Of a stretch of 64,000 nt of DNA, positions 335 to 57,480 are shown in pieces; the first letter of the stretch is position 1; the number at the start of each line of letters is the position of its first letter. Where the stretch lies: positions 6,162,098 to 6,226,097 of the forward strand of contig NC_037261.1 of assembly GCF_000002425.4 (NCBI RefSeq), read 5' to 3'. Both the position numbers and the translations under genes were made by a program. This DNA comes from Physcomitrium patens (Eukaryota; Streptophyta; Bryopsida; Funariales; Funariaceae). The notes below the pieces were generated by a model, which saw only the letters and a list, made by a program, of their open reading frames with translations, was not told where the DNA came from and made no database searches.

Positions 335-352
335 TGTCATGGACATACATTG

Positions 353-506
353 GAAGATTCTTCAAATATTCTTCTAGAATATTCTCTAAAGATTCTCTAA
401 AGATTCTCTAAAGATTCCTTTAGAAGGTTCTAGAAGATTCTTAGAATATTCCCTAAAGATTCTCTTAGAAGGTTCTAGAATATTCTTAGAAGGTTCTAAA
501 ATATTC
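353..506 (+). promoter_or_regulatory. Array of heat-shock elements in A1 U3
   Basis: Heat-shock elements are alternating GAA and TTC pentamers (nGAAnnTTCnnGAAn) bound by heat-shock factor trimers. Visible here are TTC-GAA-TTC at 372-384, four perfectly phased units at 423-440 (GAA, TTC, GAA, TTC, each two bases apart) and four more at 468-485. Each four-unit block is followed by a further GAAnnTTC pair (444-451, 489-496), and an isolated pair lies at 353-360. The array repeats in the 3' LTR (for example 6164-6181). It suggests heat-inducible transcription, which is inference only. Confidence 0.6.
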
Positions 507-607
507 TGATAGATTCTAGGAAGTTGCTCGAGAAGTTTTCTAATTAGTAGAAGTTGTTGGAGAAGCGTCCTAGTTAGCGGAAGTAGCTCGAGAAGCTTCC
601 TATTCAG

Positions 608-653
608 TAATATATATAGGAGTCGAGGCTGAAGGGTTCTTCAGTCTCGACAA
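608..653 (+). promoter_or_regulatory. A1 core promoter: TATA box, hairpin and predicted self-primer
   Basis: TATATATA lies at 611-618. A 13-bp inverted repeat (arms 622-634 and 639-651, 4-base loop, one G-U pair) follows directly. The 11 bases AGTCTCGACAA at 643-653 begin 32 nt after the start of the TATA box, where transcription should start, and are exactly complementary to the bases just after the LTR (781-791). I read them as the 5' end of the RNA and a self-primer of the Tf1/sushi kind. The start site is predicted from spacing, not observed. Confidence 0.6.
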
Positions 654-780
654 CACATCTCTTGGAGTTCTAGCTCACCGTTCTGGTGTTGTTCTTGTAC
701 TCATCTGTTTAATCTAGTTCTGTTACTTCTTCTTGAACTTCTTATTAGATTTCAAGTCTGTATTTTGTGTCCATGACAGT

Positions 781-791
781 TTGTCGAGACT
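781..791 (+). other. Predicted self-primer binding site of A1
   Basis: TTGTCGAGACT lies two bases after the LTR end, where minus-strand DNA synthesis must start to define the LTR boundary. It is a perfect 11-nt complement of 643-653. The A4 copy (36117-36127 against 35977-35987) is also perfect. A2 (9213-9223) has one mismatch, and family B has a different but still complementary pair. Confidence 0.65.
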
Positions 792-801
792 ACATTTTCA
801 C

Positions 802-813
802 TGGTATCAGAGC
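802..813 (+). other. Initiator-Met tRNA-like primer motif, displaced from the LTR
   Basis: TGGTATCAGAGC is the usual plant primer-binding sequence for initiator-Met tRNA, but it sits 23 nt from the LTR end instead of next to it. Other copies keep only ATATCAGAGC (about 9237, 27481, 36140; B2 minus strand 61886-61897). It may be an ancestral or coincidental motif; its distance from the LTR argues against use as the primer site. Confidence 0.4.
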
Positions 814-1081: not shown

Positions 1082-2083
1082 ATGGCTGAAAGTTTGGAAT
1101 CCAAACTAGACGCCATCATAAATGCTCTTGCCTCGTTGTCACATAGGACAACAGAGATCGAAGGAGTCATGGTAGGACTCCATAACAATGGAGCATCTGG
1201 GATAGCGCCATCTAAAGCATATCAGCCTCAAACTTCTGCGCCAGAAGAAGTAGTTCTACCTCCATTTCAACAAGATCGAGTAGTCCTACAACGAAAGGAG
1301 CCTCGAGTTAGTCTTCCGGATAAGTTTGATGGAACTCGTTCCAAGTTTCGAGGTTTTGTCAACCAAATCAGGTTGATAACAATTTTACAGCCCGAACGTT
1401 ATCCGACGAAGGAAGCGCGTGTTGGGCTTGTTGGAACCTTGCTTACAGCACAAGCTCTGTCTTGGTTTACTCCCTTGTTTGAGAAGCGATCGCCAATCCT
1501 GAGCAACTTTGAAACGTTCCTGGAGGCGTTTGCAGAAGCATTTGGCGAGCATGATAAAGTTCGATGGGCTACAACAAAGATCCGATCACTACGACAAGGA
1601 ACACGCTCTGCATCAGTCTATGCCTCGGATTTCAGACAATTGGCAAGTGACATTAATTGGGGTGAAGAGGCGTTGGTGAGTCAGTTTTATTGGGGCTTGA
1701 AGGATGATGTGAAGGACTTGCTGTTATCTCTTCCTGATCCTCAAACGCTCAACGAAGCTATTAGCCAAGCTGTAAAGTGTGACAACCGCCTATTCTAGCG
1801 TCGCCAAGACCAACGTCCAAGACACCAAATGACTCGTTACGACGTGACTATGTCTGCAAATAGCTTAAACTCACATTCGGAGGCAACAGACATGCAAATC
1901 GACATGGCGCGTGTCCGATCTCTTACTCCAACAGAGAAGAAACGGCGTATGGAGGAAGGGTTATGTTTGTACTGTGGAGAAGAAGGTCACAAGGTTGGAA
2001 ATTGCCCAAAGAAGCAAAATTGGCACCTTGTCAAGACTAGAAGTGCGATGATTCCGAAAAACGACGATGCCCAGCCACAGTAG
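1082..2083 (+). pseudogene. gag: A1 gag, one in-frame nonsense codon
   Basis: Retrotransposon Gag forms the virus-like particle that packages the RNA. From ATG 1082 one frame runs to TAG 2081-2083, about 333 codons, broken by a TAG at 1796-1798. The A3 copy has CAA at that place, so the break fits a C-to-T change. The N-terminal part has a short coiled-coil-like segment and the gypsy gag core (PDKFDGTRSKFRGF, ALSWFTPLFE, FRQLASDINW). A zinc knuckle CX2CX4HX4C (CLYCGEEGHKVGNC) lies at about 1966-2010, followed by basic residues. A2 has a start further upstream (9491), so the true start of A1 is uncertain. pol follows in the -1 frame with a 43-nt overlap. Confidence 0.9.
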
Positions 2084-5000
2084 GAACCGTGCGGCTGGAC
2101 AATCTAATATCACGACAACAATCAGGTTCCTCCTTCTCTGTCCAACCTGCCCGTTGTTTTACAATTCCTTTGTTTTTAGGCCCTCAAAAACAAAAAACTT
2201 TAGCTTTATTGGATTCGGGGGCATCTACTTGTTTTTTAGATGAAGAGTTTGCTAAACGCCACAAGATCCGTTTAGTACAGAAGTCCAAACCTGTTCACGT
2301 AGAGGTGAAAGATGGACGACCCTTATTGTCAGGCAACGTTACCCACGAATCAGAACCTATAGAAGTGGTGTTTAAGGACCATAGTAGTCACGTTATTTTT
2401 AATATTATTAGAACTCCATCAAGCCCTGTTATCCTTGGTCTTTCTTGGTTAGAAGATCATAATCCGTCCATTGATTGGAGGCTACGAAGGATAACATTTC
2501 CTGAAAAAAATAATAATAATAAACTTGTTGGTAGAACCTACATGAAGAAATCCATGTTTATTGGAGCGAGAGCGTTCCTAAGATCGTCCAAGGAAGGCGC
2601 ACCATTTGTCATTTATGCAGCTCCAACTAGCGGCGAGAATATCTCAACATCGAATATACTAGAGCAATATAGGGATTTTGAAGACGTGTTTCAGAAGAAG
2701 AACGCCGATATACTGCCGGAACATCGACCATATGATTGTGCCATAGACTTAGAGGAAGGAGCGCAACCACCTTTTGGTCCAATATACAACCTATCGCAGA
2801 CGGAGTTGGCAGAATTGCGAAAGTACATCGATGAGAATCTAGCCAAGAATTTTATTCGACATTCAAAGTCGCCAGCTGGAGCACCAATCCTATTCGTGAA
2901 GAAAAAGGATGGCTCACTACGGATGTGCGTGGACTACCGAGGACTCAACAAGGTGACCAAGAAAAATCGCTATCCCTTACCTTTGATCTCTGGCCTCTTT
3001 GATCAACTTGGACGTGTAAGGATTTTTACAAAGATTGATTTAAGAGGAGCCTACAACCTTGTGCGAATCAAAGAAGGAGATGAATGGAAGACAGCCTTTC
3101 GTACAAGGTATGGCCATTTTGAGTACAATGTCATGCCTTTTGGTCTTACCAATGCTCCGGCGGTCTTTCAGCATATGATGAATGACATCTTTCGGGAGTA
3201 CCTTGATGACTTTGTTGTCATCTATCTGGATGATATTTTGATATTTTCCAAGAATGAAGAAGAATATGAGAAGCACGTTTGTTTGGTTCTTGAAAAACTA
3301 CGCGAACGAGGACTCTACGCCAAGTTGGAGAAGTGTCAATTTCACCAGAATGAGATGGAATTTTTGGGCTTCATTGCGACTACAGAGGGCTTGAAGATGG
3401 ATCCAAAAAAGGTAGAAGCAATTATATCTTGGGAAGTTTTGAAGACGGTTAGAGATGTTCAGTGTTTTCTTGGATTTGCTAACTTCTATCGGATCTTCAT
3501 CAAGAATTATTCTCAAGTTGCTGCACCACTCACGCGTCTAACAAGCAAAGACAAGCTCGAATGAGGATCACAAGCAGCAAAAGCATTTCAAGATCTCAAG
3601 ACGGCATTCACTACGGCTCCAATCTTGGTACACCCTGACTTTGCAAAGGCTTTTTATTTAGAGACCGATGCTTCAGATTTTGCTTTGGGAGCTGTGCTTT
3701 CACAGATGGGCATAGACAAGAAGCTTCACCCAGTTGCGTTCTATTCACGGAAGTTCTCTGCTGCTGAGATCAACTACGAGATCCACGACAAAGAGCTGCT
3801 TGCTATAGTGGATGCCTTCCAAGAGTGGCATCACTTCCTTGAAGGAGCTGCACATCCAGTGACTGTTTATACGGACCACAAGAATTTGGAGTACTTCATG
3901 ACAGCTCGAATTTTGAATCGTCGTCAAGCTCGATGGAATATGTCTCTATCACGATTTGACTTTATTATCACCTACCGCCCTGGAAAACAGCAAGGATTAT
4001 CTGACGCATTATCGAAGAGATCGTATCTTGCGCCAAAGGCTGGAGAAGCAGCGTTTGATCAACAATGTACAACATTGTTGAAATCAGAAAAATTCAGGAT
4101 TTTTGCTACTGTTGCAACTATCGATGACGGCTTCCTCAGCGAGGTACGTACTGCGACCATTGAGGATTCTATAGCTCTTGACATCAAACAACGTGTTGAT
4201 AATGACAAGTTTAAGGTGGAAGGAGATCTTCTGTATTTTGAGGAGCGGTTGTATATCCCGAAAGGACCAACTCGACTCCGAGTACTTCAATCTCGCCACG
4301 ACTTTCCAGCTGCGGGACATTTTGGATTCAACAAGACTTTGGAGCTCATTTCACGAGATTTTTGGTGGCCCCAAATGTGGAAGGATGTGAAGGAATTTGT
4401 CCTTTCTTGTGATGTTTGTTCAAGATCCAAGATCCCTCGACATCATCCGTATGGACTTCTCCAGCCATTGCCTATTCCGCACCGACCATGGTCTTCAGTT
4501 TCTATGGACTTCATTACGGACCTACCGCCATCGAATTCATTTGACAGCATCTTTGTTGTGGTGGATCGATTTACAAAGATGGCGCATTTCATGCCTTGCA
4601 AGAAAACATCGTCAAGTGAAGACACCACAAGACTCTTTCTTGATAACATATATCGTTATCATGGCCTACCAGATGATATTGTGTCGGATCGAGGTACTCA
4701 GTTTGTATCCAAGTTTTGGAGGTCCCTCTTTGAGATATTGAAGGTGGATATTAAACTCTCTTCGGCTTTTCATCCTCAAACTGACGGTCAAACGGAGCAG
4801 GTGAATCAAGTTTTGGAACAATATTTACGATGCAGCATCAACTATCAACAAGATGATTGGACTGCATATCTACCGCTTGCTGAGTTCGCATACAACAACA
4901 CTCTTCATGCGTCAACTCAACAAACACCATTCTTCTCCAACTACGGATACCACCCCAAGCTCGATTTATTGAGTTCTTCAGTAAATAACAACCCAGCAGC

Positions 5001-5562
5001 TGAAGGATTTGTGAAGCAACTATCGGAGCTTCAAGCGACGTTGAAGCTTCAATTGCAATCTGCCCAAGAGAGTTACAAGGCATCTGCAGATAAATATCGA
5101 AATGAGGCGCCTACTTTTAAAGTTGGAAGTAAAGTATGGTTTCTTCGACGGAATATCAAGACCAAGTGGCCATGTGACAAATTGGACTATCGGAGATTAG
5201 GGCCATTTGTTATCGAGAAGCAGATCAATCCGGTGGCATATCGTCTGGAGTTACCAGCTACTATGAAGGTACATCCAGTCTTTCACGTGTCTTTGTTGGA
5301 ACCTTATCGAGAGTCAGCTTTTCCCCAAAGAGTACAAAGTCCGCCACCAAGTATCGAAATTGAAAACCATGAGGAATACGAGGTGGAAAAGGTACTAGAT
5401 TCACGGCGTAATAGGAGAAAATTGGAGTATTTAGTGCATTGGAGTGGATACGACATCAATGAACGAACGTGGAAGCGTGTCGAAAAACTTGCCAATGCAC
5501 CAAAAAAGGTACAAGAATTTCATCAACGATATCCTCATAAACCTAAGCCGATTCAACGATAG
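2041..5562 (+). pseudogene. pol: A1 pol: protease, RT, RNase H, integrase, chromodomain; one nonsense codon
   Basis: Pol copies the RNA to DNA and inserts it. Frame 1 is open from 2041 and runs to the stop at 5562, broken only by TGA 3562-3564; A2 has TGG there, a G-to-A change. Protease: DSGAS at about 2212. RT: FVKKKDGSLRMCVDYR, then YLDD at 3223-3234. RNase H: ETDASDFALG, DKELLAIVDAF, YTDHKNLEYF (about 3660-3900). Integrase: HHCC zinc finger about 4298-4425, then D 4507, D 4687, E 4795, giving D-x59-D-x35-E. A canonical chromodomain (EYEVEKVLDSR, LEYLVHWSGYD) fills about 5370-5540 and should direct insertion to modified chromatin. It overlaps gag by 43 nt in the -1 frame, so frameshift expression is likely. 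Confidence 0.93.
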
Positions 5563-6072: not shown

Positions 6073-6086
6073 AGAAGAGGAGGTGA
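6073..6086 (+). other. A1 polypurine tract
   Basis: AGAAGAGGAGGTGA abuts the 3' LTR and is the expected primer for plus-strand DNA synthesis. The A2 equivalent is AAATGAGGGGATGA (23040-23053). Confidence 0.85.
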
Positions 6087-6498
6087 TGTCATGGACATAC
6101 ATTGGAAGATTCTTCGAATATTCTTCTAGAATATTCTCTAAAGATTCTCTAAAGATTCCTTTAGAAGGTTCTAGAAGATTCTTAGAATATTCCCTAAAGA
6201 TTCTCTTAGAAGGTTCTAGAATATTCTTATAGATTCTAGGAAGTTGCTCGAGAAGTTTTCTAATTAGTAGAAGTTGTTGGAGAAGCGTCCTAGTTAGCGG
6301 AAGTAGCTCGAGAAGCTTCCTATTCAGTAATATATATAAGAGTCGAGGCTGAAGGGTTCTTCAGTCTCGACAACACATCTCTTGGAGTTCTAGCTCACCG
6401 TTCTGGTGTTGTTCTTGTACTCATCTGTTTAATCTAGTTCTGCCACTTCTTCTTGAACTTCTTGTTAGATTTCAAGTCTGTATTTTGTGTCCGTGACA
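6087..6498 (+). repeat. A1 3' LTR
   Basis: Same TG...CA ends as the 5' LTR, with the heat-shock-element array (6112-6230), TATA box, hairpin and primer sequence (6363-6373) all retained. It is 412 bp against 444 bp for the 5' LTR because repeat units are missing. Confidence 0.95.
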
Positions 6499-8350
6499 CT
6501 TTGAAGAAGGAATTTACTTCTTTACCAACTTTGTATTGTGTTGACTTTTTTAAGGCATCTTTTATGAAAACAAATACATCAAACTTTGCCTTGGGTGTGG
6601 TATTATCACAAATAGGAATAAATGACAAATTCCACCTAATAGCTTTTTATTCTTAGAAATTTTTAGCAACTAAGATTAACTATGAGATCCATAACTAAAA
6701 CTTTCTAGCAATTGTGGATTCATTTCAAGAATGACATCATTATCTAGAAGGTACTTTAAGTCTAATAACAATGTATACAGATAACAAGAACCTCAACTAT
6801 TTCATATTGGCACGTGTTTTGAATCATTGCTAAGCTTATTGGAGCATGTCATTATCAAGATTGATTTCAAGATCATATATCGACCTAAAAAATAATAAGA
6901 TTTATAGATGCTTTTTCTAGACACTCTTATCTTGTACCAAAAGAAGGAGACATATCTTTTGATTAACAAAGAACAATCCTCTTAAAGTCAAAGTATTTTT
7001 CTTCTTGAATAATAAAATCAATATTGACTATTGATTGGACATTTGTCAAAAGAAATTCAATCAAGTATGTTCTTTAATCCTCTTGTTCATGATATCAAGA
7101 ATCTTTATTTTAAGTCTCATGATGTTTTAAAGTTTGAGTTCAAAAACAATATTTTTATTTCAAAAGATGCTTATATGTTCTAAAAAGAGAGCCACATTTA
7201 CGTGTTCTTTATGCATGTCATGACTTTCTAGCATCATGATATTTTGAATATAATAAGACATTAGAACTTATATGTAGAGATTTTTGGTGGCCGCAAATGT
7301 GGAAGGTAGTAACAAACTTTGTCCATTCATATAACATTTGTTCAAGATAAAAAACTTTTCATCATTTACTATATGGACTTCTCCAACCATTGCCTATATT
7401 CAAACAACCATGGTCTTACATTTCTATGTATTTTATTATAAATCTTCTAAATTCAAGTTTATATGATTCTATATTCATAATTATAGATTGTTTCATCAAA
7501 ATGGCACATTTTATAGTATGTAAAAAATTTATTTTAGATAAAGAAATAATTAAGCTTTTAATTAATAATATTTATCGCTATCATGGATTATCAAAGGATA
7601 TTATATCAGATAAAGGGATTTAATTTGTATCAAGATTTTAGAAATCCTATTCAAGATTCTAAAGGTAGATATAAAGCTCTCTTAAACTTTTTATCCTCAA
7701 ATTGATGGGCAAACAAAATGGAAGAATCAAGTTCTGGAGTAATATTTAAAGTATACAATCAACTATCATCAAGATAATTGAACAATTCTTTTGCCATTGA
7801 TAGAGTTTGTATATAATAATTTAATATATTCTTCTATTCAATATAAACTTTTTTTTTTAATTATGGTTATCATCCATGACTTGATACTTTTGACTTTTTA
7901 AAAGTTGATAATTGTATGGTGGAAGCTTTAGCAAATCATTTGTCAGAGCTATATGCAACAATAAAGATACAATTAAAAGAAGTTGAAGAATGACAAAAGA
8001 TTAATGTGGATGCCTATCACAAAGAGCAACCTCAATTCAACGTAGGTAACAAGGTATGATTACTTCATTACAACATCAAGACTATTCATCTTTGTGATAA
8101 GTTGGACTATTGTAGGCTAGGATCTTGGAAAGAAGATAAATGCTACTTTCTCTTATAAAAGTAGATAATAATAAAGAGTTTGAGGTGGAAGAAGTCTTAG
8201 ATTTAAGGTGGTATTAAAATAAGTTGGAATATCTTGTTCATTAGCATAGATATAATATTAGAGAATGCACATCAGAGTCAACAAAGAATCTTATAAATGC
8301 AACAAAGAAGGTTAAGGCTTTTTATTGATACCATCCATAAAATCCAAGAT
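6499..8350 (+). pseudogene. pol: B1 pol remnant: RNase H, integrase, chromodomain
   Basis: Heavily decayed pol continuing on the right of A1. RNase H is readable at 6510-6660 (NTSNFALGVVLSQIG), integrase at 7255-7870 (FWWPQMWK; a YRYHGL motif near 7575; SDKGI before a stop at 7621), and an integrase C-terminus and chromodomain at about 7990-8340 (FEVEEVLDLR; NLINATKKVKAF). There are many stops and indels. It closely parallels A1, but the LTR that follows is of family B. The third ORF is absent here: only about 70 bases separate the chromodomain from the polypurine tract. Confidence 0.8.
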
Positions 8351-8914: not shown

Positions 8915-9210
8915 TGTTAGGGACATAGTCCTTAGAACCTTCTAGAGACAAGTTTCTAGAACCTTCTAGAAGCAAGTTTCTAGAACCTTCTAGAAGCTTC
9001 CTAGTTGATAGAGTTGCTTGAGAAGCTTCTTAAATAGGAGTATATATTGGAATCAAGGCTGAACAGTTCTTTAGTCTCGACAACACATCTCTTGGAGCTC
9101 TAGCTCACATCTGTGGTGTTGTTCTTGTATTCATCTGATTAATCTAGTTCTTGTCAGTTCTTCTTGAACTTCTTGTTAGATCTTGAGTTTGTATTTCTGT
9201 GTCCATGGCA
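8915..9210 (+). repeat. A2 5' LTR
   Basis: TGTTAGGGAC...CCATGGCA, 296 bp. It differs from A1 mainly in U3, where a 'tttctagaaccttctagaag' unit is repeated. Primer sequence at 9073-9083 and primer-binding site at 9213-9223 (one mismatch). Confidence 0.92.
8935..9000 (+). promoter_or_regulatory. Heat-shock-element array in A2 U3
   Basis: Five perfectly phased pentamers occupy 8978-9000 (TTC, GAA, TTC, GAA, TTC, each two bases apart). Four more lie at 8954-8971 and two at 8935-8942. The repeat unit differs in sequence from A1, yet the GAA/TTC phase is retained. Confidence 0.6.
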
Positions 9211-9490
9211 GTTTGTCGATACTTCACTCACCTCACATATCAGAGCTAGTTTCTTCCTCGTAAGAGTGTGGATTATCCCTCTGCTTGGAAGTGTACTAGC
9301 ATTTTAGAGGCTGCGGATTACCCTCCTCTAAACTGATACTTCTTTTGTTACAATATTGGAGTCTTATTCTTCTTGGAGAGAGTGGATTACCCCTTTTTTT
9401 GAAGCTTTCAAGGCATTTTAGAGGTTGCGGAGTATCCTCCTCTAAACCAATATTGTCTTCTTGTAGAGTCATTTCTGTCCTTCTCTTAGA

Positions 9491-13881: not shown

Positions 13882-15149
13882 TGTCGTGTTGTAACACGAG
13901 TATACCGTGAAAATATAAAGAAAATGGACTTTTATTAATATTCAGTTACCTCGAATATTCGGAGCAACGACCAACTCTAGTGTAAATACTGAGTGGTCAG
14001 GTTCAGTCACCCCGTAACAGTGAGATGGGGCATACTGAAATGCTCCGTTCGATTCCAATAACTGGAGTTAGCAGGAAGGGAAAGGACCAATTCATGCGAC
14101 GGGTGAGCCTGGTTCGAAGAGCCAATTGGATCCAATTTTGAAAATCCAATCCAGGTCCTCTTACCCAATATGAGACGTGAATTGGTCGGGCAACCCAATG
14201 CGATCCAATTTTGAGAATCCAATCTGGGTCCTCTTATCCAATATGAGACCTGAATTGGTCAGGCGACTCAATGTGGACCCAAGTATGGGATTTTGATTCT
14301 GTTTCAGGCTGTCCTATTCTCTGTGTCGTTTCGAAAGCTCTGACGGCAGGAGCCAATTTCGGATCTAAGCTCTGACGGCGAGAGCCAATTTTGAATCTAA
14401 GCTCTGACGGTGGGAGCCAATTTCGGATCCAAGACAGAAGATTGAAGAAATTCAGAGGATAAGGTTAGGGGGAGAATAAGTTTTGGTGAGGGTTTTTTTT
14501 TCAGATCAAGAGGGGGTGGGGTTTTTTGGATCGAAGAGCTAGCTTCAAGTTTTTACAAGGTTACTAGTTCGTTTTCATTGGAGGTTTTTGAAGATCAAGG
14601 AGATTGGAGAGGAGCTTCATGCTTTGGGGTTGGGGAAGAAAAGACAGAGAATTGGATTTTTTTCTTCTTCATAGAGTTTTAAGAAGACTGAGGCAATCGT
14701 TGCTAAAGTCAGTGTTGTAATGGTGAATCGGGATTTTTAATGAAGTGGGTTTGATTACTCTGACTGTTTTGTGAAATCGAGTTACGTCTGTGATTGAAGG
14801 ATTAAAAAGGTGTCTATAGGATTGAGTATGCGGAGTGAATGAAATTTATTGGGTTAATCTAACAAGACAGTCAGTGGATTGAAGATCGTAAGTACAAAGC
14901 GGTATCAGAGATTAGCAGATTGGATTGTTCGAGGTTCTCTATAACGTCTAGAGACCTACCGACTGGGGCAAAAAGGACTTCGACAAGTAGTCGAAGGGCA
15001 TCCGTATAGATTGATGGTATATTCTTGCAGTCGTTTATATTCCAGCAGTCAAAAATTGATAGACTGCTTGACTATTGGTGAATCTCCAAACTACCTTTTA
15101 CAACCAGACGTCCGGCGCGTTCTTGAGCAGTAAAGCTCGTAATACGACA
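13882..15149 (+). repeat. D1 5' LTR, with a gag-derived segment
   Basis: TGTCGTGTTGTAACACG...TAATACGACA. About 13925-14440 resembles the C-terminal gag coding region of family E (43025-44070 in E5): shared strings include 'aggaccaattca', 'ttggatccaatt' and 'tccaagacggaaga'. The rest (G-rich 'gggggtggggtttttt', then R-U5) is family specific. A terminal 'taatacgaca' is common to all D LTRs here. Confidence 0.9.
14129..14432 (+). repeat. Tandem repeats inside the D1 LTR
   Basis: Two copies of a 73-bp unit start at 14129 and 14202 ('gatccaattttg...'). Three copies of a 32-bp unit start at 14337, 14369 and 14401 ('gctctgacgg...gccaattt'). The D1 3' LTR has the same set, while the D2 LTRs have a single 32-bp unit (37258), so the expansion is recent within the family. 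Confidence 0.8.
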
Positions 15150-15153
15150 TAAG

Positions 15154-15171
15154 TAGTGAACCCAACGTGAA
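15154..15171 (+). other. D1 primer-binding site
   Basis: Four bases after the LTR, tagtgaacccaacgtgaa; the D2 equivalent (37951) begins TGGTGAATCCAACG, as expected for pairing with a tRNA CCA end. I cannot assign the tRNA. Confidence 0.5.
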
Positions 15172-15220
15172 AGCTTAAGGTAGAAGGTATTGGATTTCGT
15201 TTGATTTTATTTTTATTTTT

Positions 15221-17593
15221 ATGAAAAATGAAAATAAAAATTTTGAAGGATCTTTGGGAGGAGTTTTTGGTGGGGGTTCTTCTAAAAGATAAGGTATGTA
15301 CATAGATCCGTCTATTGCTAGTATGTTTCAAGCCTTCTCATTATCGATGCAGCAACAGCAAAGCAATGATCGAAAGAAAGCTTTGGCAACCAAAGCATTA
15401 CAAGCAATGGTCAATAAAATTGATCAATTTGATGGAAGGAATATTTTAAGGTATTTAAGATGTTATGTTCGTGAAATGGAATTAAATTAGGTTTTTGAGA
15501 AGAAAATGGTTGAATTATTTGGACTTGCCATGATACCGGTGATAAGAGACCATATTACATCGACTCCGGATCGTTATGGGAATTCATGGGAGGTTTTTTC
15601 ACATGCATTGAAAGACGAATATTTCTTGGAAGATGCTGATCGCGTTACTAAGAAGCTGTTTTTGGAATAGATTCAAAGGCCCAATAAGAATTTGTAAGCA
15701 ATAGAGCTACTAGGAGAATTTAAGAGGCAGTACTCTCAATTATCACAGGTAGAAAAATTGACATTGGAGCCGAACAAAGTTGATCTATTTCTTCAAGCTG
15801 CTCACGGAGAATTGCAAGGGAAATTAGAACTCCTTCTTGAAGACAAAGAAGAAGATGAAGGATTGACAACAAAGAAGAAGAACGTTGAAGATGCGGTGGG
15901 GTTGCTCAAAAAAAGCGAAAGGAGGAAGGATAGGAGCAATATTCCAAAAAAAGTACAAGCACCCAAAGCTCCAGTACGTACAACACCACCAACAATGCGT
16001 ACAGTTCAACCTTCGACATCCTTATCAAAGAAAGCAGATATGGAGATGGAAGAAATTATACGAAGAATGCGAGATCTTCAAATCAAATTGGCAAAACTTG
16101 AAGAGAATACTTCTATAAACAATTCGAAGAATGTTTTGAAACAAGGATATGTATAAAGATGCATTTGGTGTGATGATGCTTCACACACTAGAAAAGATTG
16201 CAATGAATTTAATAATATGATATGGCAGGGAATTATTTGCTGGAAAGATGGGAAGATAGGATTGAAAAATAGAGAGGATCTTCTTCAAACCAATTTTGAC
16301 AAGGGAGGAATGAGAGCATTGGTTCAAGATTATCTAAAAGAGCATGAAACAGTAGCACGAGAAAGTGCAAGTTATGGTGCTAGAGTAGATGATGAAATTG
16401 GTGGAAGTACGGAAACTAGTGAGTTTTGGGCTTCTGCCGTTTCTACAATGCAAGAAGGGAAATTACCTCGAGAAGCGTTATTGAGAACTGCAGCTACAAT
16501 ACGAGGTAGAACAAGTTGGGAGGATCCTGTTGAGTCTCTTTCAGTTCATGCATATATTGCTAAGAGCCAACATGAAGCTTTGATGGAAGAAAAAAGACGA
16601 GGAAATTTTGATGATACTAGAGAAGGAAATTCTTCTAAGAGGCAAACTCGAGGAGACAAGGCTCGGGAGGCAGCTTCACAAGAATTGCCTGTAAAGGATA
16701 CCTCATCATCATTGAGAGAAAAAATAAAGGAAATAAAAGATAAGGGCAAATCAATTGCTTATAAGCTACTTTCTGACATTGAAGCGGCAACACTTTTGAA
16801 AGGGGTGTTGGAAGAACGTATATTAAACGCTAAGGTGGAATTCACATTGAAAGAAGTCTTGGGAATTGCAAAGAAGGAGTTTCATGATGTCATCATTGAC
16901 AGCATTAAGCGAAAGAGGCAATTAATGGGTGAAACTGGAATGAGTCATGCTATTGATGCAAGAATATATAAAGATGAAGAAGAGGTTGATATTGGTTACA
17001 AGCAACCAACAAATGAAAAGAATGGCTATAATCAACGAGTACGTTTCAAAGATTCTAGTGACAAGGAAATGAAAACTTTGAGCCATTATACTCGAAAGCA
17101 TTGGGCAAGGACAACTACTGAAGTATTGGTGAAAGTAAGAGATATAGAAGAACCAATAGTTGCTTTAGTCGACCACGGCTCTGAAATAAATCTTATGTCT
17201 AAAGATCTTTATAAGAAGCAAAAATGGCCAATTGATATGGAACATGGATAGGCAATTCGAGCGGCTAATAACACACGGGGCGAACTATATGGAGCTTGTC
17301 GAGATGTCAAAATTCGGATTGTTGATGTTGTGAGAGAGCAATATTTCTTTGTTCAAGATACAACGTCTTATCCATTGATTTTAGGACAACCTTATATTAC
17401 GGCAACACTGATGGAAACAAAAGTATTCGACAATGATTCTGCTTATGCAAGGGTACGGAGCGAAGATGGGAGGAAAGCTGTACAATTTCTAACAGTACCT
17501 CCTAACTATGAACGGAATCGAGATAGGTTGAGGGAGAAACCATTGCCAAAGATTGTTGAAGGATTTAAGGATTTTGGGGAGGTACCACTGTAA
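15221..17593 (+). pseudogene. gag: D1 gag-protease, several nonsense codons
   Basis: One frame from ATG 15221 to the stop at 17591-17593, about 790 codons. Stops fall at about 15290 (CAA in D2), 15488, 15668, 15695, 16154 and 17249 (TGG in D2). The N-terminus is Gly-rich, then an FDGRNILRYLRCY region and a Lys/Glu-rich coiled-coil-like stretch (about 15830-16130). A CX2CX4HX4C zinc knuckle (CIWCDDASHTRKDC) is at about 16160. A long acidic/basic linker precedes a retropepsin-like protease with DHGSEINLM at about 17170, where DSG or DTG would be usual, and PLILGQPYI at 17371. pol follows in the -1 frame. Confidence 0.85.
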
Positions 17594-20500
17594 AGCGAGA
17601 TTATGGAGGTACAAAAGAGGAGGTACTCTCGCGAGATGAAGGTGCCTTTGATGCGAGTTTTATTGGTATATTAGAGAATGGAAACATTATGTATAAGAAA
17701 GTTGATGATTTTAAAAGAAAAGAAAGAAAAAGATTATATAATATTGAAGGATAATTATGCAAGTTAGGTACATTGCAAGATGATGAGAGGATTTTGGGTG
17801 TTTATGAAGAAAATGGACTGGAAGATTCATTGGAATTGATTACATCTATTGGGTTAGGGGATAATGATAAGATTGTTGAGATTCATGCAAGAGAGGTTTA
17901 TACCATACTTGAATCTTTTCAAGCACCAGAAGTCACTGTAGAGACGAGATATAAAACGGCAGATAAGAAGGTAAAGCCTGTTGTCAGGCCATTACCAGAA
18001 GATTCTAAAGAACAAATGAGAGAAGCATCAAAAGAAGCAAGTTTAAGAGATCCAATGAGTATTGGACATCAGTTTACTAAAGAGACTTTTGAAGAATTGA
18101 AGATTGGTTCTGATGGTTCTTTATTGCCGGAGGAAATTACTTGCTTCAAAAAGATGTTGATTAGACAAGGTAGATCGTTTGCCTTCGAATCTCATGAAAT
18201 TGGGTGTGTGGATTCAAATATTATAACACCTATGGTTATCTTCATTGTACCACATGTCCCTTGGAATCTAAGACCGATTCCAGTACTGGGGACACATTTA
18301 CCTAAATTGGTTGAACTATTAAAGGAAAAAATAAAGATGAAAATATTGAAACCTTCATTTGTGCCGTATTCTAGTCGATGGTTTACGGTACCTAAGAAGA
18401 ATGGGTCACTACGGTTTATTCAAGATATGCAACCGGTGAATGCAGTAACTGTCAGGAATGCAGGAATTGAACCTATTGTGGATGAATTTGCTGAGGCGTT
18501 TGTTGGAAGGGCGATCTATTCAATTGGTGATTTGTATTCAGGTTATGATCAATTTCAACTTGCCGAAGGAAGTAGAGATATGACAATAATGAGGACACCA
18601 CTTGGATTGGTTAGAATGTGCACTCTTCCTCAAGGCGCGATCAACTCAGTTGCGCATATGATGAATGGGATGAATAAGATATTGAGAGATTTTATTCCGG
18701 AAAAGACTATGCATTTTCTGGATGATGTTCCTATAAAAGGGTGCAGAGAAGGAGACAAGGATGAAACTTTAGATTCGAGGGAGTATCGCAGATATGTTGT
18801 TGATCATATACAAGATTGTGAAAAGATTTTAACTCGGCTTGGAGAAGTTCATCTTACAGTATCGGGTATGAAGTCCGTATTTGGAGTACGAGAGGTTGTA
18901 ATTGTTGGACATTTATGTCGATCTTACGGAAGAAAACCAGATCTGACTAAAGTTGATGCAATTGGAAGGATGAAAGAGAATTGTTATTCTTTAACAAACG
19001 TTCGCAGGTTTTTGGGTGCATGTGTATTTTATCGAATCTGGATCCCTCATTTTGCTCACATAGCGGATCCATTATATGAACTGTTACGCAAGGGTTACCG
19101 ATTTAAATGGGAAGAAAGGCATATTCAGGCAATGCAAAGATTGAAGAAATTATTGATGTCACCTCCAATATTGAGGAAGGTTGATTATAAGTGCAATAGA
19201 CCAGTGATTCTTACTGTGGACGCTAGTCCAATTGCCATTGGATGGACTATGGGTCAAGATGATTGCAGTGGGAATAGATTTGCAGTTCGGTTTGGAGCTA
19301 AAGTTTTAAGTATTCGTCAGCGTGCATATTCGCAAGTCAAAAGAGAACTTTGGAGAGTCGTTTCGGCTATGAAAGCTGAAAAGGACTATTTGATTGGGAT
19401 AGTAGTAGTAATTGAAATGGATTGCTTGCCATTGCTTGGAATGATTATTAACTGTTCAATGTCAGATATTGCGATGTGAGATGGATTGCTTATATTAAGT
19501 CAGTAAATCCAGAATTTAAGCATATTACTGGGAAAGACAATTTAGTAGCAGACATGCTATCTCGAGCAAGATACGAGAGGGAGGACGAAATGGTTGAAGA
19601 CATTGATGATGTCAAATTGAAATTCTATTCAATATCAAATCTCAACAGAGAAGACAAACTATTTCTTGAAGAATCTTATGAAGGAGAATTATTGGATATT
19701 GGTCATTACTTGAATACCTTGACTAAGCAGAGAAATTGGTCTACAGAAAAATTCAAACAAATAAGAAAAAAAGCATATGGATTTTTACTTCGAGATGGAT
19801 TCTTATGGAAGAGACCGAAGAAAGGAATTGGGATGCCACAGCGAGCGATAGGCAAAAAAGAAGAAAGACTAAAATTATTAAAGGAGTTTCATGATAGTTT
19901 ATGGGCAGGGCATAGAGGAATCTGGGCTACTTTTGCTAAACTCAAGGAACGATATTAGTAGAAAAATATGTATCGAGATGTGCTCTCATTTGTAGAGTCA
20001 TGTGAAATCTGTCAATCGTATTCTAATATCCGACATTGAGATGGTCTTCATCCTACGTATCCTCTGGCTATTCATTTTAAATGGATTGTTGATTTGGTTA
20101 TTATGTCGGTTGGGTTATGGCAGATGAGATATTTGATTTTAGCTCGTGAAGATTTATCAAATCAAGTAGAAGGAAGAGCATTGAGGACAAAATCTACAGA
20201 GGGGATTTGTAGGTTTTTGCTTGAAGATGTCATTTGCCGCTACGGATGCATACGAAAAATCACTGCAGATCATGGAGAATTAAATGCACAAGAAGCTCGT
20301 AAGTTCTTTGAAAGATGTGGAGTTAAACTATCACTGACTACTACTTATAATCCGGAAGGGAATACGAAAAGCGAACGCGGTCATCTACCAATTGTGAAAG
20401 CATTAATTAAAGCTTGTAATGGGAAAGTTAAAGATTGGCCACGGCTTTTGTCATTTGCATTATGGGCTGATCGAACAACACATAGTTCAGTGACAGGATA

Positions 20501-21068
20501 TATGCCAGTAGAACTTATGACAGGTCAAAAACCAATTATGTCGATTGAAGAAAAGGTACTTACTTGGAGTATGCTACCATGGGAAGATGGATTAATAAGA
20601 GAAGAACTTCTGGCTATTAGGATTCGACAATTAGAGCAAAGAACGGAAGATGTTCAGATAGCATTGGGAAGGTTAAAAAGAGCAAGGTTACGAAACAAGG
20701 CGCGATTCAATAAGCAACATCGATTGAGACCAAAAGCAATCGAGGAAGGTGACTGGATACTTGTTTATGATAATAGTCTGGATAATCAACATAATACTTG
20801 GCGGAAATTTTCAAAACGTTGGTTTGGACCATATGTGGTAACAACTGTTCATGGTAATGCAACTTACTGGTTACGGGAGTTAGATGGTACAAAATTGAAA
20901 ATACCAATTGCAGGGAAGCGAGTAAAAATATTTAAACGAAGACACATAGAGGTGAATATAGAAGACCTTAATGAAGGTATAGAAATTCAGCAGCAAGAAG
21001 ATGAAAGTGATTTGGATAATGAAGGTGACGAAGACAAACAAGACAAAGACGTAGAGGATATATTCTGA
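17594..21068 (+). pseudogene. pol: D1 pol: RT, RNase H, integrase
   Basis: Two frames joined by a 1-base deletion at about 19476. RT and RNase H are open from 17773 to 19479. RT motifs: FTVPKKNGSLRFIQD, YSIGDLYSGYDQFQL, and FLDDVPIKG where Y-x-DD is usual. RNase H: TVDASPIAIGW, YSQVKRELW, then a third Asp in VIEMD. Integrase: zinc finger H-H-C-C (19890-20010, interrupted by TAG 19956), then Asp 20091, Asp 20268, Glu 20373, giving D-x58-D-x34-E. The C-terminus is acidic with no chromodomain. FLDDVP and YSQVKRELW match a gypsy lineage I associate with fungi and early-diverging plants, not the common seed-plant clades. Confidence 0.88.
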
Positions 21069-21116
21069 ATCAAACAGCAATTGGGTAAATTAGTGCATGC
21101 CGGAGGATGCACAGGT

Positions 21117-21129
21117 TCAGAGGGGTGGA
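21117..21129 (+). other. D1 polypurine tract
   Basis: TCAGAGGGGTGGA directly before the 3' LTR; the D2 equivalent is CAGAGGGGGTGGA (40697-40709). Confidence 0.8.
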
Positions 21130-22398
21130 TGTCGTATTGTAACACGAGTATACTGTGAAAATATAAAGAAAAGGGAATTTTATTAATATTCAGTTACCTC
21201 GAATATTGGGAGCAACGACCAACTCCAGTGTAAATACTGAGTGGTCAAGTTCAGTCACCCTGTTATAGTGAGCTGGGGCATATTGAAATGCTCTGTTCGA
21301 ATCTAATAACTGGAGTCAATAGGAAGGGAAAGGACCAATTCATGCAACGGGTGAGCCTAGTTTGAAGAGCCAATTGGATCCAATTTTGAGAATCCAATCC
21401 GGGTCCTCTTATCCAATATGAGACCTGAATTGGTCGGGCAACCCAATGCGATCCAATTTTGAGAATCCAATCCGGGTCCTCTTATTCAATATGAGACCTG
21501 AATTGGTCGAGCGACTCAATGTGGACCCGAGTATGGGGTTTCGATTCTGTTTCAAGCTGTCCTATTCTTTGTGCCGTTTCGAAAGCTCTGACGGCAGAAA
21601 TTAATTTCGGATCTAAGCTCTGACGGCGAGAGCCAATTTCGGATCTAAGCTCTGACGGTGGGAGCCAATTCCGGATCCAAGACGGAAGTTTGAAGAAATT
21701 CAGAGGATAAGGTTAGGGGGAGAATAAGTTTTGGGGAGGGTTTTTTTTTTCAGATCAGGAGGGGGGGGGGTTTTTTGGATCGAAGAGCTAGCTTCAAGTT
21801 TTTGCAAGGTTATTAGTTCGTTTTCATTGGAGGTTTTTGAAGATCAAGGGGATTGGAGAGGAGCTTCATGCTTCGGGGTCGGGGAAGAAAAGACAGAGAA
21901 TTGGATTTTTTTCTTCTTCATAGAGTTTTGGGAAGACTGAGGCAATCGTTGCTGAAGTCAGTGTTTTAATGGTGAATCGGGATTTTTAATGAAGTGGGTT
22001 TGATTACTCTGACTGTTTTGTGAAATCAAGTTACATCTGTGATTGAAGGATTAAAAAGGTGTCTATATGATTGAGTATGCGGAGTGAATGAAATTTATTG
22101 GATTAATCTAACAAGACAGTCAGTGGATTCAAGATCGTAAGTACAAAGCGGTATCAGAGATTAGTAGATTGGATTGTTCGGGGTTCTCTGTAATATCTAG
22201 AGATCTATCGGCTGGGGCAAAAAGAACTTCGACAAGCAGTCGAAGGGCATCCGTATAGATTTATGGTGTATTCTTGCAGTCGTTTATATTCTAGCAGTCA
22301 AAAACTGATAGACTGCTTGACTATTGGTGAATCTCCATACTACCTTCTACAGCCAGATGCCCGGTGCGTTCTCGAGCAGGAAAGCAAGTAATACGACA
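21130..22398 (+). repeat. D1 3' LTR
   Basis: TGTCGTATTGTAACACG...TAATACGACA, 1269 bp, collinear with the 5' LTR including its 73-bp and 32-bp tandem repeats and a longer G run near 21765. Many differences from the 5' LTR are transitions. Confidence 0.92.
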
Positions 22399-35837: not shown

Positions 35838-36736
35838 TGTCATGTTGTAACACGAGTATACCGTGATAATATAAAGAAAGGGGACTTTTATTAATGTTCA
35901 GTTATCTCGAATATTAGGATCAACGACCAATTCCTAAATAGGAGTATATATTGAAATCAAGGCTGAAGAGTTCTTTAGTCTCGACAACACATCTCTTGGA
36001 GCTCTAGCTCACCTTTGTGGTATTATTCTTGTATTCATCTGATTAATCTAGTTCTTGCCAGTTCTTCTTGAACTTCTTGTTAGATCTCGAGTTTGTATTT
36101 CTATATCCGTGATAGTTTGTCGAGACTTCACACACCTCAGATATCAGAGTTAGTTTATTCCTCGTTAGAATGAGGATTATCCTTCTACTTGGAAGTGTAC
36201 TAGTATTTTAGACGTTGTGGATTACCCTCCTCTAAACTGATACTTCTTTTGTTACAATATTGGAGTCTTATTCTTCTTGGAGAGAGTGGATTACCCCTTT
36301 TCTTGAAGCTCTTAAGGCATTTTAGAAGTTGCGGAGTATCCTCTTCTAAACCAATATTGTCTTCTTATAGAGTCATTTCTGTCTTTCTCTTAGAATGGCC
36401 GGAGGCCAAGACATTAGTATGACGAAAAGTTCAGAGTCTAAGTTGGATGCTATCATGAATGCCCTCGCTACATTATCGTAAAGAACTGCAAAGATTGAAG
36501 GAGTCGTGGCAAGGCTTCATAATGATGGAGCATCTAGAATGGCACAATCTAGGTTGCACCAGTCTCAAACTTCTGTACTTGGAGAAGCAACTTTGCCTTA
36601 GGTTCGACAAGCACCACTGGTTCTACAACATAAGGAGCCCCGAGTTAGCCTTCCGGACAAGTTTGATGGTACGCATTCCAAGTTTCAAGGATTCGTCAAT
36701 CAAATCAAGTTGATAACAGTTTTATAACCCGAACGC
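35838..36736 (+). mobile_element. Chimeric D LTR stub joined to a family A fragment (A4)
   Basis: 35838-35934 is the first 97 bp of a D LTR (TGTCATGTTGTAACACG). At about 35935 it switches, within shared 'attcctaaa'-like bases, to the middle of an A LTR (TATA box, primer sequence 35977-35987, LTR end 36114, self-primer site 36117-36127, leader) and A gag (from ATG 36395 to 36736, with stops), where the D2 5' LTR begins. The left outer flank atgt (35834-35837) matches acgt after D2 (41900-41903), so the whole 35838-41899 block behaves as one insertion into E5. Confidence 0.75.
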
Positions 36737-48568: not shown

Positions 48569-49288
48569 TGAAGAATGTATAAATGACTTTACTGGTTCGT
48601 TATCGATTAAATAGTAGTAATGTTGGGATTTAGATGAATGGTTAGTTCGATTAGTTGTTAATAGTAGGAAGTTAGGAACATACGCGGTTAAGAAGCCAAA
48701 GTTTCACAACCTGTGGAATCTGCTGAATGACGATTCATATTTTGGTAGGATAAAGAGGTTGAGGAAGAAGGAATGAGGGCCAGACTGTGATAGTCGTGAG
48801 CTAGGGTAAAGCTTGGAGCTACCCTTTTGTTTTCTTTGCTTTTGTGTTTTTCTTTAGTATTGGATTTAAGAAAAGGATTGCTGAAACTATGATTGAGATA
48901 TTGAAAATTATGAATTCGAATTAATTAATTTGGAGAAAGAAAGTGTGATTGTGATAATAGAGATTATTGCATTGTCATAGTAGCACTGGAAGATTGAGTA
49001 AAAGTAAAGGAATTGAGAATTGAAGTACTGTGGAAAGAGATTAAGCATCCTGTAGATGTCAGGAATGTCAATGATATTGAGTAGCTGCAGGGCAGTGAAC
49101 GATTGTAGAAATTGTGAAGGGATTGAATTGAGATGAGGAAGAGAACTTTGGAAGTTTTAGATAATTAATACATAATCAATTGTGACATAACATATCCAAT
49201 TCATACAACGAATCTTTCTCCGAGATCGAACCCACCTATAGTGATCAAATATCTTGGTGTTTTGAGTCCGAGTCAAACGACGATTACA
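48569..49288 (+). repeat. E4 5' LTR
   Basis: TGAAGAATGT (one change from TGTAGAATGT of the 3' LTR) to GACGATTACA, 720 bp. It contains a 'gccagactgtgatagtcgtgagc' motif also present in the E5 LTR (35043-35062), a family E hallmark. Confidence 0.95.
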
Positions 49289-49292
49289 TTTT

Positions 49293-49310
49293 TGGCGCCG
49301 CTGTCGGGGA
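49293..49310 (+). other. E4 primer-binding site (tRNA-Asp)
   Basis: TGGCGCCGCTGTCGGGGA, four bases after the LTR; this is the primer sequence typical of Athila/Tat-type plant gypsy elements. Confidence 0.85.
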
Positions 49311-49368
49311 TTGACAACAGTATGAAATGTTAAAGAATTGATGGTACAAAAGACGAGATCGAAGGAGT

Positions 49369-52300
49369 ATGAGCGGTGATTACGACTATGATAATCACAG
49401 AAGGAATCAACAAGTAAAGGAAAGACAGGAGCGATTTTATTTCAGAAATTTATTACGACAACAACAAGAAGGGATTCAACGTAAGAAACGTCGATGGAGT
49501 TGGATAAAGCCGTGGCTGCATCCATGGGCGAGTATTCGAGCATATCCAAGTTCTGAAAGAAGTACAATATTGCACCATTATATACCATTGGAGAAATTAC
49601 CGCGAGCGCTTGTAGGGGATACCGCGAGTAACGAAGCGTCAGAGTCAAGTTCAGTAATTATAAGAAGTTTAAGTACAGAAGAATTGAATAATAGCGATAG
49701 TTTACAAGAAAGAAGAGTGAGCAAATATCAAATTTGAACAAAAAGAAGAATTCATATTAATATAGCAAGAAGACCAGCGCAAGCACCAATGACAGAAGAA
49801 GCACCCGCAGTGCCAATAGCGGTACAGATGGGAGCAATTGGAGATCGCACCACCAGCGTGGCTCCATTATCCACGTTTAATAGATGGCCGGGTTCTGATC
49901 TCGATCAATACCTGTTCCAATTTTTGACAGCGTGTGTAGCCAATAATGGCAGAACTGAAGATGTCTGGTTGCGATGGCTGCTAGCGACTTTTAAGGATAT
50001 AGCGTTTGAATGGTATATTCGACAACCAGTGGGACAATTTTCTAATTGGGAAGCATTGAAAAATGCTTTCTTAACTCATTTTCGACTAATAGGATTCGAA
50101 GATCGTCTTCGAGAAAATTTGCTGAATAGTAAAATATTTGTGGGAGAATCAGTGCAGTCGTATTATAGCCGAGTTGCGGATATATTACGTAAATGGCCAA
50201 ACAATCAAATGCCAGACGCATTTATATTGTCAATAATAGTGAATGGGTTGCATCCCCCAGAATTGAAGATGTTTGTTAAGGAGTCTCAACTAGTTATGGT
50301 AGCTGCCTCTTTAGCACGTGCAAAGGTGTGGGAGGAGTGCCATTATGATCAATTATTGATGGTGGGAACCACAATGATTCCTAGTGTAGGAAATCAAGTT
50401 CCAATGATCAATACGATGATAGGGAGCTACCCACGAATGATTGCGCCTAGTATGAGAAATCCCAATTCTCAAGGAGTAGTTAATGCCACTTCTTTGCAGG
50501 CGATACCACCCGTGGCAACTTATCCTTCACCGATGGCATATCGACAACCTGAAGTACCAATGAATGCAACAATTAACGATTCTAACGAAGCTCTATTGTT
50601 AAATCTAACAAAGAAAATGGAAGAATTAGCCGTGCATATGACTAAAGATAAAGAGAAAAGGCATAAACCTTCTAATATGAGACTTAATGTATGGTATAAC
50701 AACTGTAAAGGGTAGGGACACTTTGATACGGAATGCCCCTCCCCTCATCAGAAGATGGGACAGTATATGTATTGTGGAGGAAAGCATAACACTGCCAATT
50801 GTTGGTACTTACCAAGACAACAAACAATGATACAACCAACTGTATGGGATGTAAATCAAGTGCAAACAGGAAATATGGATAGATGGAATGGAAATAGAAA
50901 TAATAGAGTGAATCGTGGTTTTGGAAATTTCCAAAATCCTAACTATAATCAGCCCTACGGGACCAATATGCAGAATGGTGGCCAAAATCAAATGGGAAAT
51001 CAACCATCGATGCCAATACAACAGACCAATTCAGCAATGGCGACAACTAGTCAACCTGGATCCTTTACTGCACCAACATGGAACCGACCTGGAAGGTATG
51101 TCCCGACGGAGACTCCCAATGTACCTGACGGGACAAGAAGAAAACCAGTTTGTTGTTTTCGATGCCACCAATTGGATCATTATGCAAGTGATTACAACAA
51201 CCCAAGATTTATCAAAGAATACGCACCTCTTTGCACAAATTGTAAGCAATCTGGTCATTACCACTACCAATGTAATGTGCCTTTTAATCCAAATAGTAGG
51301 AACCAGCACATGATATCAACAGTGCAAATTATAGAAGAAACAAACAAACCACACAAATCACCGGTACATCGGGTGGAAGCGATTGATGCAATATTGACAA
51401 GAAATCAGCAAAAAGGCAAAGAACCAATTCAAATATTGGAGAAATTGATACCAGCCCTGATCAACAGACCAATACCAAAATCTGCTCCATTATTGGACGA
51501 AGCGTCACCGTCACAACCCAATTCGACCAATATATTGGTGCGTCCACCAATTTCACAAGTACCAATATTACACCAATACGGTGGACAGTCGCATCAGTTA
51601 AAGGATCCAATTTTCAAGGAGCAGTTGCAACCAGAAATCGAGGAAGTACTAATTCCTGATATTGGAAGTACCAATATATGGGGACCGGGATCCGAAATCC
51701 GTAAGAAAAAAAAGACATTGGAAATCATGACCAATATAGAACCCTATGATATTCTGAAGGATTTAGGTTCAATTCAACCAACAATCAAAATAAAGCAATT
51801 ATTGGCAGTAGCACCAGAATGCCGTAACACCTTAAACTCTTCTTTGATTCGACGAAGAACTCGTCAAAAAGAAATTCGTGAAGTAAGTTTGAATCCGGAT
51901 CTAGGCGCGTCGACTATTGATGTATCAATTGATGGAGTATTAGTTTAGGGTGTACAAGTGGATGGCGGGGCTAGCGTTAACCTCATGAATGTGGATACAA
52001 TGGAAGAATTGGGATTGGACTAATTAATGCCAACTACGGTTGTTTTACGAATGGTAGATTCAAGTCGAGTCCGACCTATGGGTACTTTACAAGGAATTGA
52101 TACAGTTGTTGCGGGGATTATATACACAATTGATTATATTGTATTCCGATTGCAAAGCATAGTATTGTCATATCCAATTTTGTTGGGTCGACCGTGGCTA
52201 TATCAAGCTGAAGCTCGGAACGATTGGGGTCGTGGAACGCTAACAATTAGAAAGGGTAAGGATAAAATAGTGCTTCAAATGTATCCTATCCAGTATTATG

Positions 52301-52647
52301 GAGAAACTCAAATTACCAGTCCAGAATATACATCGGACTGGAAACAGGAATATACGGAAGAAGAACTGGTTGTTTCCAAATCAAAGGCTGTCGAGGTACG
52401 GGAAGTTGTAGTACAAAATAGGAATATTTATCATTGTGGAAGACTAGGAGAATATTTTGTTCCTCCAGACGTTATTGATGATTCAGATCATATGATTGCA
52501 CACTGGATGCAACGAAGAGATGTTAATCAAGTTGGTGCTATAGATCCCGAATTGGAAAGCTCTAATTTATCGGAGTTTATGAAAGATCCCAAACAGAGCA
52601 GAAGATTACCGCTGAAGCTCTTAATGGACCAAAGTGTCAATCAATAA
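49369..52647 (+). pseudogene. gag: E4 gag-protease
   Basis: One frame from ATG 49369 to 52647, about 1090 codons, with stops at 49735, 50713, 51946 and 52021. The basic N-terminus is rich in Gln and Arg. Gag core at 49860-50340 (FLTACVANNGRTEDVWLRWL; FSNWEALKNAFLTHFRLIGFED). Three Cys-His knuckles: a damaged one at about 50695, one near 50770 (CGGKHNTANC) and CFRCHQLDHYASD plus CTNCKQSGHYHYQC at 51155-51270. A Pro/Gln-rich linker follows. Protease VDGGASVNLMN is at about 51960 and YPILLGRPWL at 52171. A DGG(A/S)S active site is usual for Athila/Tat proteases. Pol is in other frames. Confidence 0.85.
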
Positions 52648-55423: not shown

Positions 55424-55733
55424 ATCCGGGACGGATTTTATATCGGTGGGGGGGGAGAGAGAAAGCCAATTTAGTATTGAAGTGACAGCGCAAGAGTTGT
55501 GATGGGAAGGAAAGAGTGTGTGATGATGAGATTATGGACGGGTTGAGTGATGGTGAGTCGTTAGGAAGACACTAGTAGGATAGGTTGTTATAGGCCTGTT
55601 AGGTTAAGTCATATCAGGATAAGAACCAGGGTAGAAGTTAGGAGTGGGGCTCTGAGCTGGCATTGTTTACATTGTAATTTTTTGATTCACGTTGCTAAGC
55701 ACAAATTTTAGAGGATTATCGTGAGTAGCGAAG

Positions 55734-57428: not shown

Positions 57429-57466
57429 AACGTAATACGAGGTGGTTTACGAGGACGCTGCACAGT

Positions 57467-57480
57467 AAGGAGTGGGGCTA
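57467..57480 (+). other. E4 polypurine tract
   Basis: AAGGAGTGGGGCTA directly before the 3' LTR; E5 has AAGAGTGGGGCTA. Confidence 0.85.

Follow-up and report, generated by a model that had tools for sequence, protein, structure and literature searches.

How the LTR retrotransposons in this part of the Physcomitrium patens genome prime their reverse transcription is the question that the locus raises. The window, by which we mean the whole 64,000-nucleotide stretch that was analysed, is crowded with nested LTR retrotransposons. In two of its families, A (copies A1 to A4) and B, a complement to a stretch of the LTR, of the kind expected of a primer-binding site (PBS), begins 0-5 nt past the LTR. 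A first-pass annotation had read this arrangement as a self-priming signature of the Tf1/sushi type. The features on which the argument turns are the following.

335-778, plus strand: 5' LTR of A1 (TGTCATGG...CCATGACA)
611-618, plus strand: TATA box of A1, starting 32 nt 5' of the predicted +1
622-634, plus strand: left arm of the A1 start-site inverted repeat (loop 635-638)
639-651, plus strand: right arm of the same repeat, overlapping the primer
643-653, plus strand: predicted self-primer of A1, AGTCTCGACAA, the predicted first 11 nt of the RNA from an inferred start site
781-791, plus strand: predicted self-priming PBS of A1, TTGTCGAGACT, 2 nt past the LTR
802-813, plus strand: tRNA-iMet-like motif of A1, TGGTATCAGAGC, 23 nt past the LTR and judged not to be the PBS
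1082-1798, plus strand: gag ORF of A1, stopping at a TAG judged premature
2089-3564, plus strand: protease-RT ORF of A1, stopping at a TGA
3625-5562, plus strand: RNase H-integrase-chromodomain ORF of A1
6073-6086, plus strand: purine-rich tract of A1, picked out by eye, the probable PPT
6087-6498, plus strand: 3' LTR of A1, with a copy of the primer inside at 6363-6373
9073-9083, plus strand: primer of A2, with its PBS at 9213-9223 and one mismatch between them
35977-35987, plus strand: primer of A4
36117-36127, plus strand: PBS of A4, the exact complement of the A4 primer
62089-62099, minus strand: primer of B, ACTCTTGTCAA
61905-61915, minus strand: PBS of B, TTGATAAGAGT, with one G-U pair; genome-wide, the perfect TTGACAAGAGT is the most frequent form
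62091-62120, minus strand: start-site inverted repeat of B, 13/13 pairs and a 4-nt loop

A1 encodes gag, protease, RT, RNase H, integrase and a chromodomain. A domain search of this element placed the chromodomain (PF00385, E 4.8e-13) at the C-terminus of the integrase, and also found a Tf2-like SH3 domain. Two of its frames end, at 1798 and 3564, short of where they would be expected to, so the copy in the window looks nonfunctional. No target-site duplication surrounds it (GTACT at 330-334, CTTTG at 6499-6503). We infer that A1 is RLG1, which is described as the commonest element of P. patens, bearing a chromodomain and transcribed in protonema (PMC7466625).

As had been claimed, the 11 nt at 643-653 of A1 and those at 781-791 are exact complements, and A4 repeats both sequences identically. 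The two-base gap after the LTR holds too, and the TATA box starts 32 nt before the predicted +1 in A1, 31 nt before it in B and 31-34 nt before it across the intact families. For B, the differing sequence and the 11-nt length stood, but the pairing in the window is not fully Watson-Crick, with 10 such pairs and one G-U. A3 is visibly decayed. When 20,000 random 17-mers were drawn at the base composition of the A1 LTR, 14 had an 11-nt complement (offset 0-5 nt) anywhere in that LTR, and a chance match would be even rarer if the distance from the TATA box were fixed. A scan of CA..TTG contexts on both strands of the window (99 + 118 = 217) found at least 10 Watson-Crick pairs together with an upstream TATA-like motif at A1, A2 and B only, against a background that reached 9 pairs; A4 was missed because its LTR ends in TA instead of CA. 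In LTR element D and in both copies of LTR element C, also in the window, no such complement reaches 8 nt.

Relatives of A1 were recovered from outside the moss assembly. One scan of bacterial genome contigs picked up related pol genes on seven contigs from two bins, which we read as plant contamination. The first bin (G001), labelled AVDCRST_MAG81, is moss-like in its plant content and contains element L001 (the same locus as L008), whose RT is 94% identical to that of A1 over 289 residues and whose 11-mers are the same as those of A1, with no tRNA-like motif. By eye, the A1 leader appears to hold at 817-1030 a tandem copy of the stretch around 'gagagtggattacccctc', whereas L001 has a single copy at 290-420, without the part that bears the motif. 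The second bin (G002) is a Trichormus bin, in which TGGTATCAGAGC occurs 21 times and its reversed control 0 times; G001 has 0 copies. Trichormus is a symbiont of Azolla. The host of the G002 plant contigs is probably this fern, for which a metagenome study exists (PMC5901025). Counting repeat fetches of the same contig once, six of the seven G002 contigs that carry both parts pair exactly over 11 nt, 2 nt past the LTR end: L004, L006, L007 and L012 share one primer/PBS sequence, L005 differs from it by one compensated pair, and L038 has a quite different sequence that again forms an exact 11-nt pair, while L002 is decayed, with 7/11 pairs. On contig C16 of G001, L041 has an RT within the clade and no primer/PBS pair was found on the contig; L039, L043 and L044 likewise show none, apparently because the contigs do not reach their leaders. 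Two scans of viral contigs gave no relative, and 217 and 386 bacterial genomes (G002 and G001 included) gave no further clade-like match, other matches being at most 43% identical.

By their RT sequences, A and B belong to the Tf1/sushi (Tcn1) clade. In the RT trees, whose references include no Tf1, Tcn1 or sushi-ichi sequence itself, A1, L001, the G002 elements that were included and the B pieces group with the frog and Trametes rows at 100/99, and the Tanacetum, Closterium and Ty3 rows fall outside this group in both trees. The second tree was built without the winC, L017, L013, L015 and frog_Mixophyes rows of the first. B is represented by stop-free pieces, three of 92-124 residues from two copies (five B stretches were retrieved, of which the second tree draws on two), and we are unsure of the exact position of such short pieces.

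The other LTR elements of the window differ in their organisation. Element D (48569-58200; LTR 48569-49288) is flanked on both sides by the 5-bp repeat AAGAG and carries the PBS-like word TGGCGCC 4 nt past its LTR; unlike A and B, it looks conventional. Element C (13882-22398) has LTR ends TGTCGT...ACGACA, with neither a TGG word directly past the LTR nor a self-complement; its RT is 70% identical to that of L017 (G001) and distant from chromovirus RTs.

The claim that the two 11-mers covary between families proved stronger than it had been made, since plant contigs in the bacterial bins add three primer/PBS pairs (F1, F2 and F3) to those of A and of B (window sequence). Over these five pairs 8 of the 11 positions vary, the last three nucleotides (CAA/TTG) being invariant, and 54 of the 55 cells are Watson-Crick, with one G-U. 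Averaged over the 120 possible assignments of primers to PBSs, 34.4 of 55 cells are Watson-Crick, compared with 54 for the true pairing; the next best assignment, at 52, swaps the near-identical F1 and F2. Because A and L001, like F1 and F2, are close relatives, the independent changes are fewer than 55 cells would suggest.

Covariation is present between families and absent within A or B, where the changes seen in genomic copies are uncompensated. The A1 RT query gave 87 scored rows out of 48,377 first-look candidates in the 470-Mb, 101-contig genome, 86 of them at 97-98% identity, and the B leader query gave 40 out of 5,251; matches are spread over contigs numbered 1 to 27. The copies examined are the best-scoring matches to these queries rather than random samples. 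From the 86 other A rows 40 were fetched, 38 of which contain the PBS and 37 both primer and PBS; among these best-scoring copies the full 11-nt pairing is kept in 32/37, with a single change in 5/37. All 39 other scored B rows were fetched, and pairing is perfect in 16/39 of these best-scoring copies. The commonest B primer (28/39) and the commonest B PBS (26/39) are exact complements; the PBS of the window copy recurs in 4/39 and looks like a C-to-T decay product. No compensated change within a family was found among the 5 imperfect A and 23 imperfect B copies, and we read the uncompensated changes as the ordinary decay expected of dead copies. Across the B copies (L093-L131), primer nucleotide 7 and its partner, PBS nucleotide 5, are the most variable positions (8/39 each), with mirror-image spectra (A6/C2 and T6/G2); both are altered together in one copy (L107), without forming a pair.

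A further feature shared by these elements is an inverted repeat of 12-13 bp with a 4-nt loop at the predicted start site, found in A1, B, L001, L004-L007 and L012. Taking the first nucleotide of the RNA as 0, its right arm spans -4 or -3 to +8 (+9 in L005) and so overlaps the primer; imperfections are limited to one mismatch in L005 and one G-U each in A1, L001, L007 and L012. Its folding energy is -14.5 to -22.5 kcal/mol in these eight elements, compared with -12.5 to -16.2 for primer:PBS, and the repeat is the stronger in all eight, barely so in L005 (-14.5 vs -14.1). It is the weaker in A2 (-7.5 vs -9.8) and A4 (-10.7 vs -16.2), and is missing from L038 and the decayed L002. In the genome, 23/39 B copies keep all 13/13 repeat pairs and 33/37 A copies an intact left arm. 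Between L004 and L006, one repeat pair outside the primer is altered on both sides.

Taken together, the covariation, the RT clade and the placement of the motifs uphold self-priming of the Tf1/sushi type as the best explanation, and we consider it very probable, judging from sequence, that A1-A4 and B are self-priming moss chromoviruses of the Tf1/sushi group (plant Tcn1 clade). Priming by tRNA-iMet at 802-813, with the 11-mers serving some other role, is in our judgement improbable. The motif at that site is what we take to be the complement of the 3' end of plant tRNA-iMet, and its 12-nt match is exact in 34/38 A copies, a degree of conservation equal to that of the PBS, so that young A copies alone cannot decide the matter. 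Such priming is, moreover, the common mode among plant chromoviruses (PMC6317226). The motif nevertheless lies 23 nt from the LTR end, where, as had been pointed out, a cDNA end would not define the LTR; it is absent from L001, and in L045 (G002) this word is found at the usual position, 2 nt past an apparent LTR end. No PBS beginning with TGG lies 0-5 nt past the LTR of A1 or B. TGG is missing from A2-A4 and from all 39 B copies, none of which contains the full motif (0/39), although 23/39 keep TATCAGAGC, the remainder after the loss of TGG. We therefore reject tRNA-Met priming, given the wrong place of the motif and the lack of TGG in B.

Another explanation is that a promoter palindrome has given rise to the match incidentally, the likeness between PBS and left arm having an unrelated cause. 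That likeness is indeed seen in A, B and F1/F2. Across families, however, the match begins 2 nt past the LTR and ends at 11 nt (in L001 and L038 it runs one base longer), and L038 has an exact 11-nt pair with no such palindrome, on which ground we reject this explanation and hold it to be very improbable. Chance complementarity does generate 8-9 Watson-Crick pairs in the window scan, and a scan of 37 loci produced one 10-nt background match (L025). Against it stand the 14 successes in 20,000 random trials, counted for a single element with the position left free, and the five different sequences with nearly fixed geometry; we reject chance, whose probability we regard as negligible, viewing the covariation as excluding it.

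The pairing, its position, the covariation between families and the RT clade are observed directly; how self-priming would proceed from them can be sketched from Tf1 and general knowledge. Pol II would start at an A 31-32 nt past the start of the TATA box, and the first 11 nt of the RNA would fold back onto the PBS two bases past the LTR. RNase H would presumably release the 11-nt primer, as in Tf1, and the released 11-mer would prime minus-strand cDNA. Removal of two bases by the integrase may follow and would account for the 2-nt gap. During plus-strand synthesis the primer RNA would itself be copied, so that the PBS could be renewed from the RNA start in every round, and primer and PBS would thereby stay matched while both drift.

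Predicted RNA folds give a mixed picture. The minimum-energy fold of the A1 leader lacks primer:PBS, which is present in the A1 centroid and forms in the leader folds of L001 and B; z-scores of the leader folds relative to shuffles are weak (-0.93, -1.27 and +0.50). For the side duplexes of a Tf1-like pretzel, we counted the shuffles, out of 300, that did as well (22 tests, uncorrected). The 3' side beats most shuffles in A1 (7), A2 (2), A4 (25), B (35) and L012 (10), and not in L001 (285), the other counts being 288 for L004, 135 for L005, 263 for L006, 185 for L007 and 112 for L038. The 5' side does so only in L004 (2), L005 (0), L007 (16), L012 (0) and L038 (6), the other counts being 273 for A1, 226 for A2, 177 for A4, 109 for B, 278 for L001 and 74 for L006. 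There is a hint that part of the tRNA-like motif may pair with R-U5, as one of the arms does in the Tf1 pretzel (PMC10085805).

The start-site inverted repeat is conserved and calls for a function. With its left arm upstream of the predicted +1, it could form only in read-through RNA and at the RNA 3' end. We tentatively suggest, as a possibility that we think more apt to fail than to hold, that the repeat acts as an RNA safety catch: where the left arm is present, as in read-through RNA and the copy within the 3' LTR, it would sequester most of the primer in a 12-13-bp hairpin stronger than the primer:PBS duplex, and only RNA starting at +1, which has no left arm, would be free to prime. If true, self-priming elements of moss and probable fern families would have a way of their own to verify the RNA 5' end. 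The alternative is a promoter role of the repeat. As far as the literature was searched, we found no mention of such a start-site repeat, and a search for mapped start sites in P. patens returned nothing on RLG1.

The first-pass annotation had been aware of no description of self-priming for plant elements, but the idea had largely been anticipated. Neumann et al. 2019 (PMC6317226) predict it for 12% of plant LTR elements, among them most members of the moss and club-moss Tcn1 clade as well as TAR copia elements, and refer to older suggestions of the kind for Houba and Osr-1, two plant copia families. They report the Tcn1 clade in mosses and club-mosses only, the main text being without the word fern. 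Novikova et al. 2010 (PMC2864245) place P. patens elements with Tcn1, describe a Selaginella member with evidence of neither tRNA nor self-priming, and name mosses and Selaginella as plant hosts in a survey that included ferns; our G002 elements, probably from a fern, suggest that the Tcn1 clade extends to ferns. With RLG1 being transcribed, a one-line prediction for plant Tcn1 gains a sharp, testable case in P. patens. The tRNA-Met look-alike could also mislead PBS callers: under a published rule (12 bp or more matching the 3' end of a tRNA perfectly, at most 50 bp from the LTR; PMC6317226), RLG1 would probably be classed as tRNA-primed.

Set beside known systems, A and B share their chromodomain (in the case of A) and Ty3 affiliation with the tRNA-Met-primed Tekay, Reina, CRM and Galadriel, and A has a downstream tRNA-Met-like motif; they differ in that the Tanacetum rows fall outside the A/B clade, the motif is 23 nt off and B is without TGG. 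The TAR copia elements (Houba, Osr-1) are also plant elements with predicted self-priming, but are Ty1/copia rather than Ty3/gypsy. Tf1 of Schizosaccharomyces pombe, whose primer is 11 nt long, and the Tf1/sushi group resemble A and B in RT clade, chromodomain (A1), the 11-nt length and a PBS beside the LTR that is complementary to the predicted RNA start. Unlike Tf1, A and B have a moss host, and the pretzel side duplexes are not consistently found in them and their relatives. A1 and B also carry the start-site repeat. Reviews of the Jia type on the Tf1/sushi group count nonseed plants among the hosts (PMC10085805). The closest counterpart is the plant Tcn1 clade, as described in the accounts cited above, with moss hosts and self-priming predicted for the majority; to those accounts our analysis adds the between-family covariation, together with the start-site inverted repeat and the probable fern members, both of which are new as far as our searches show.
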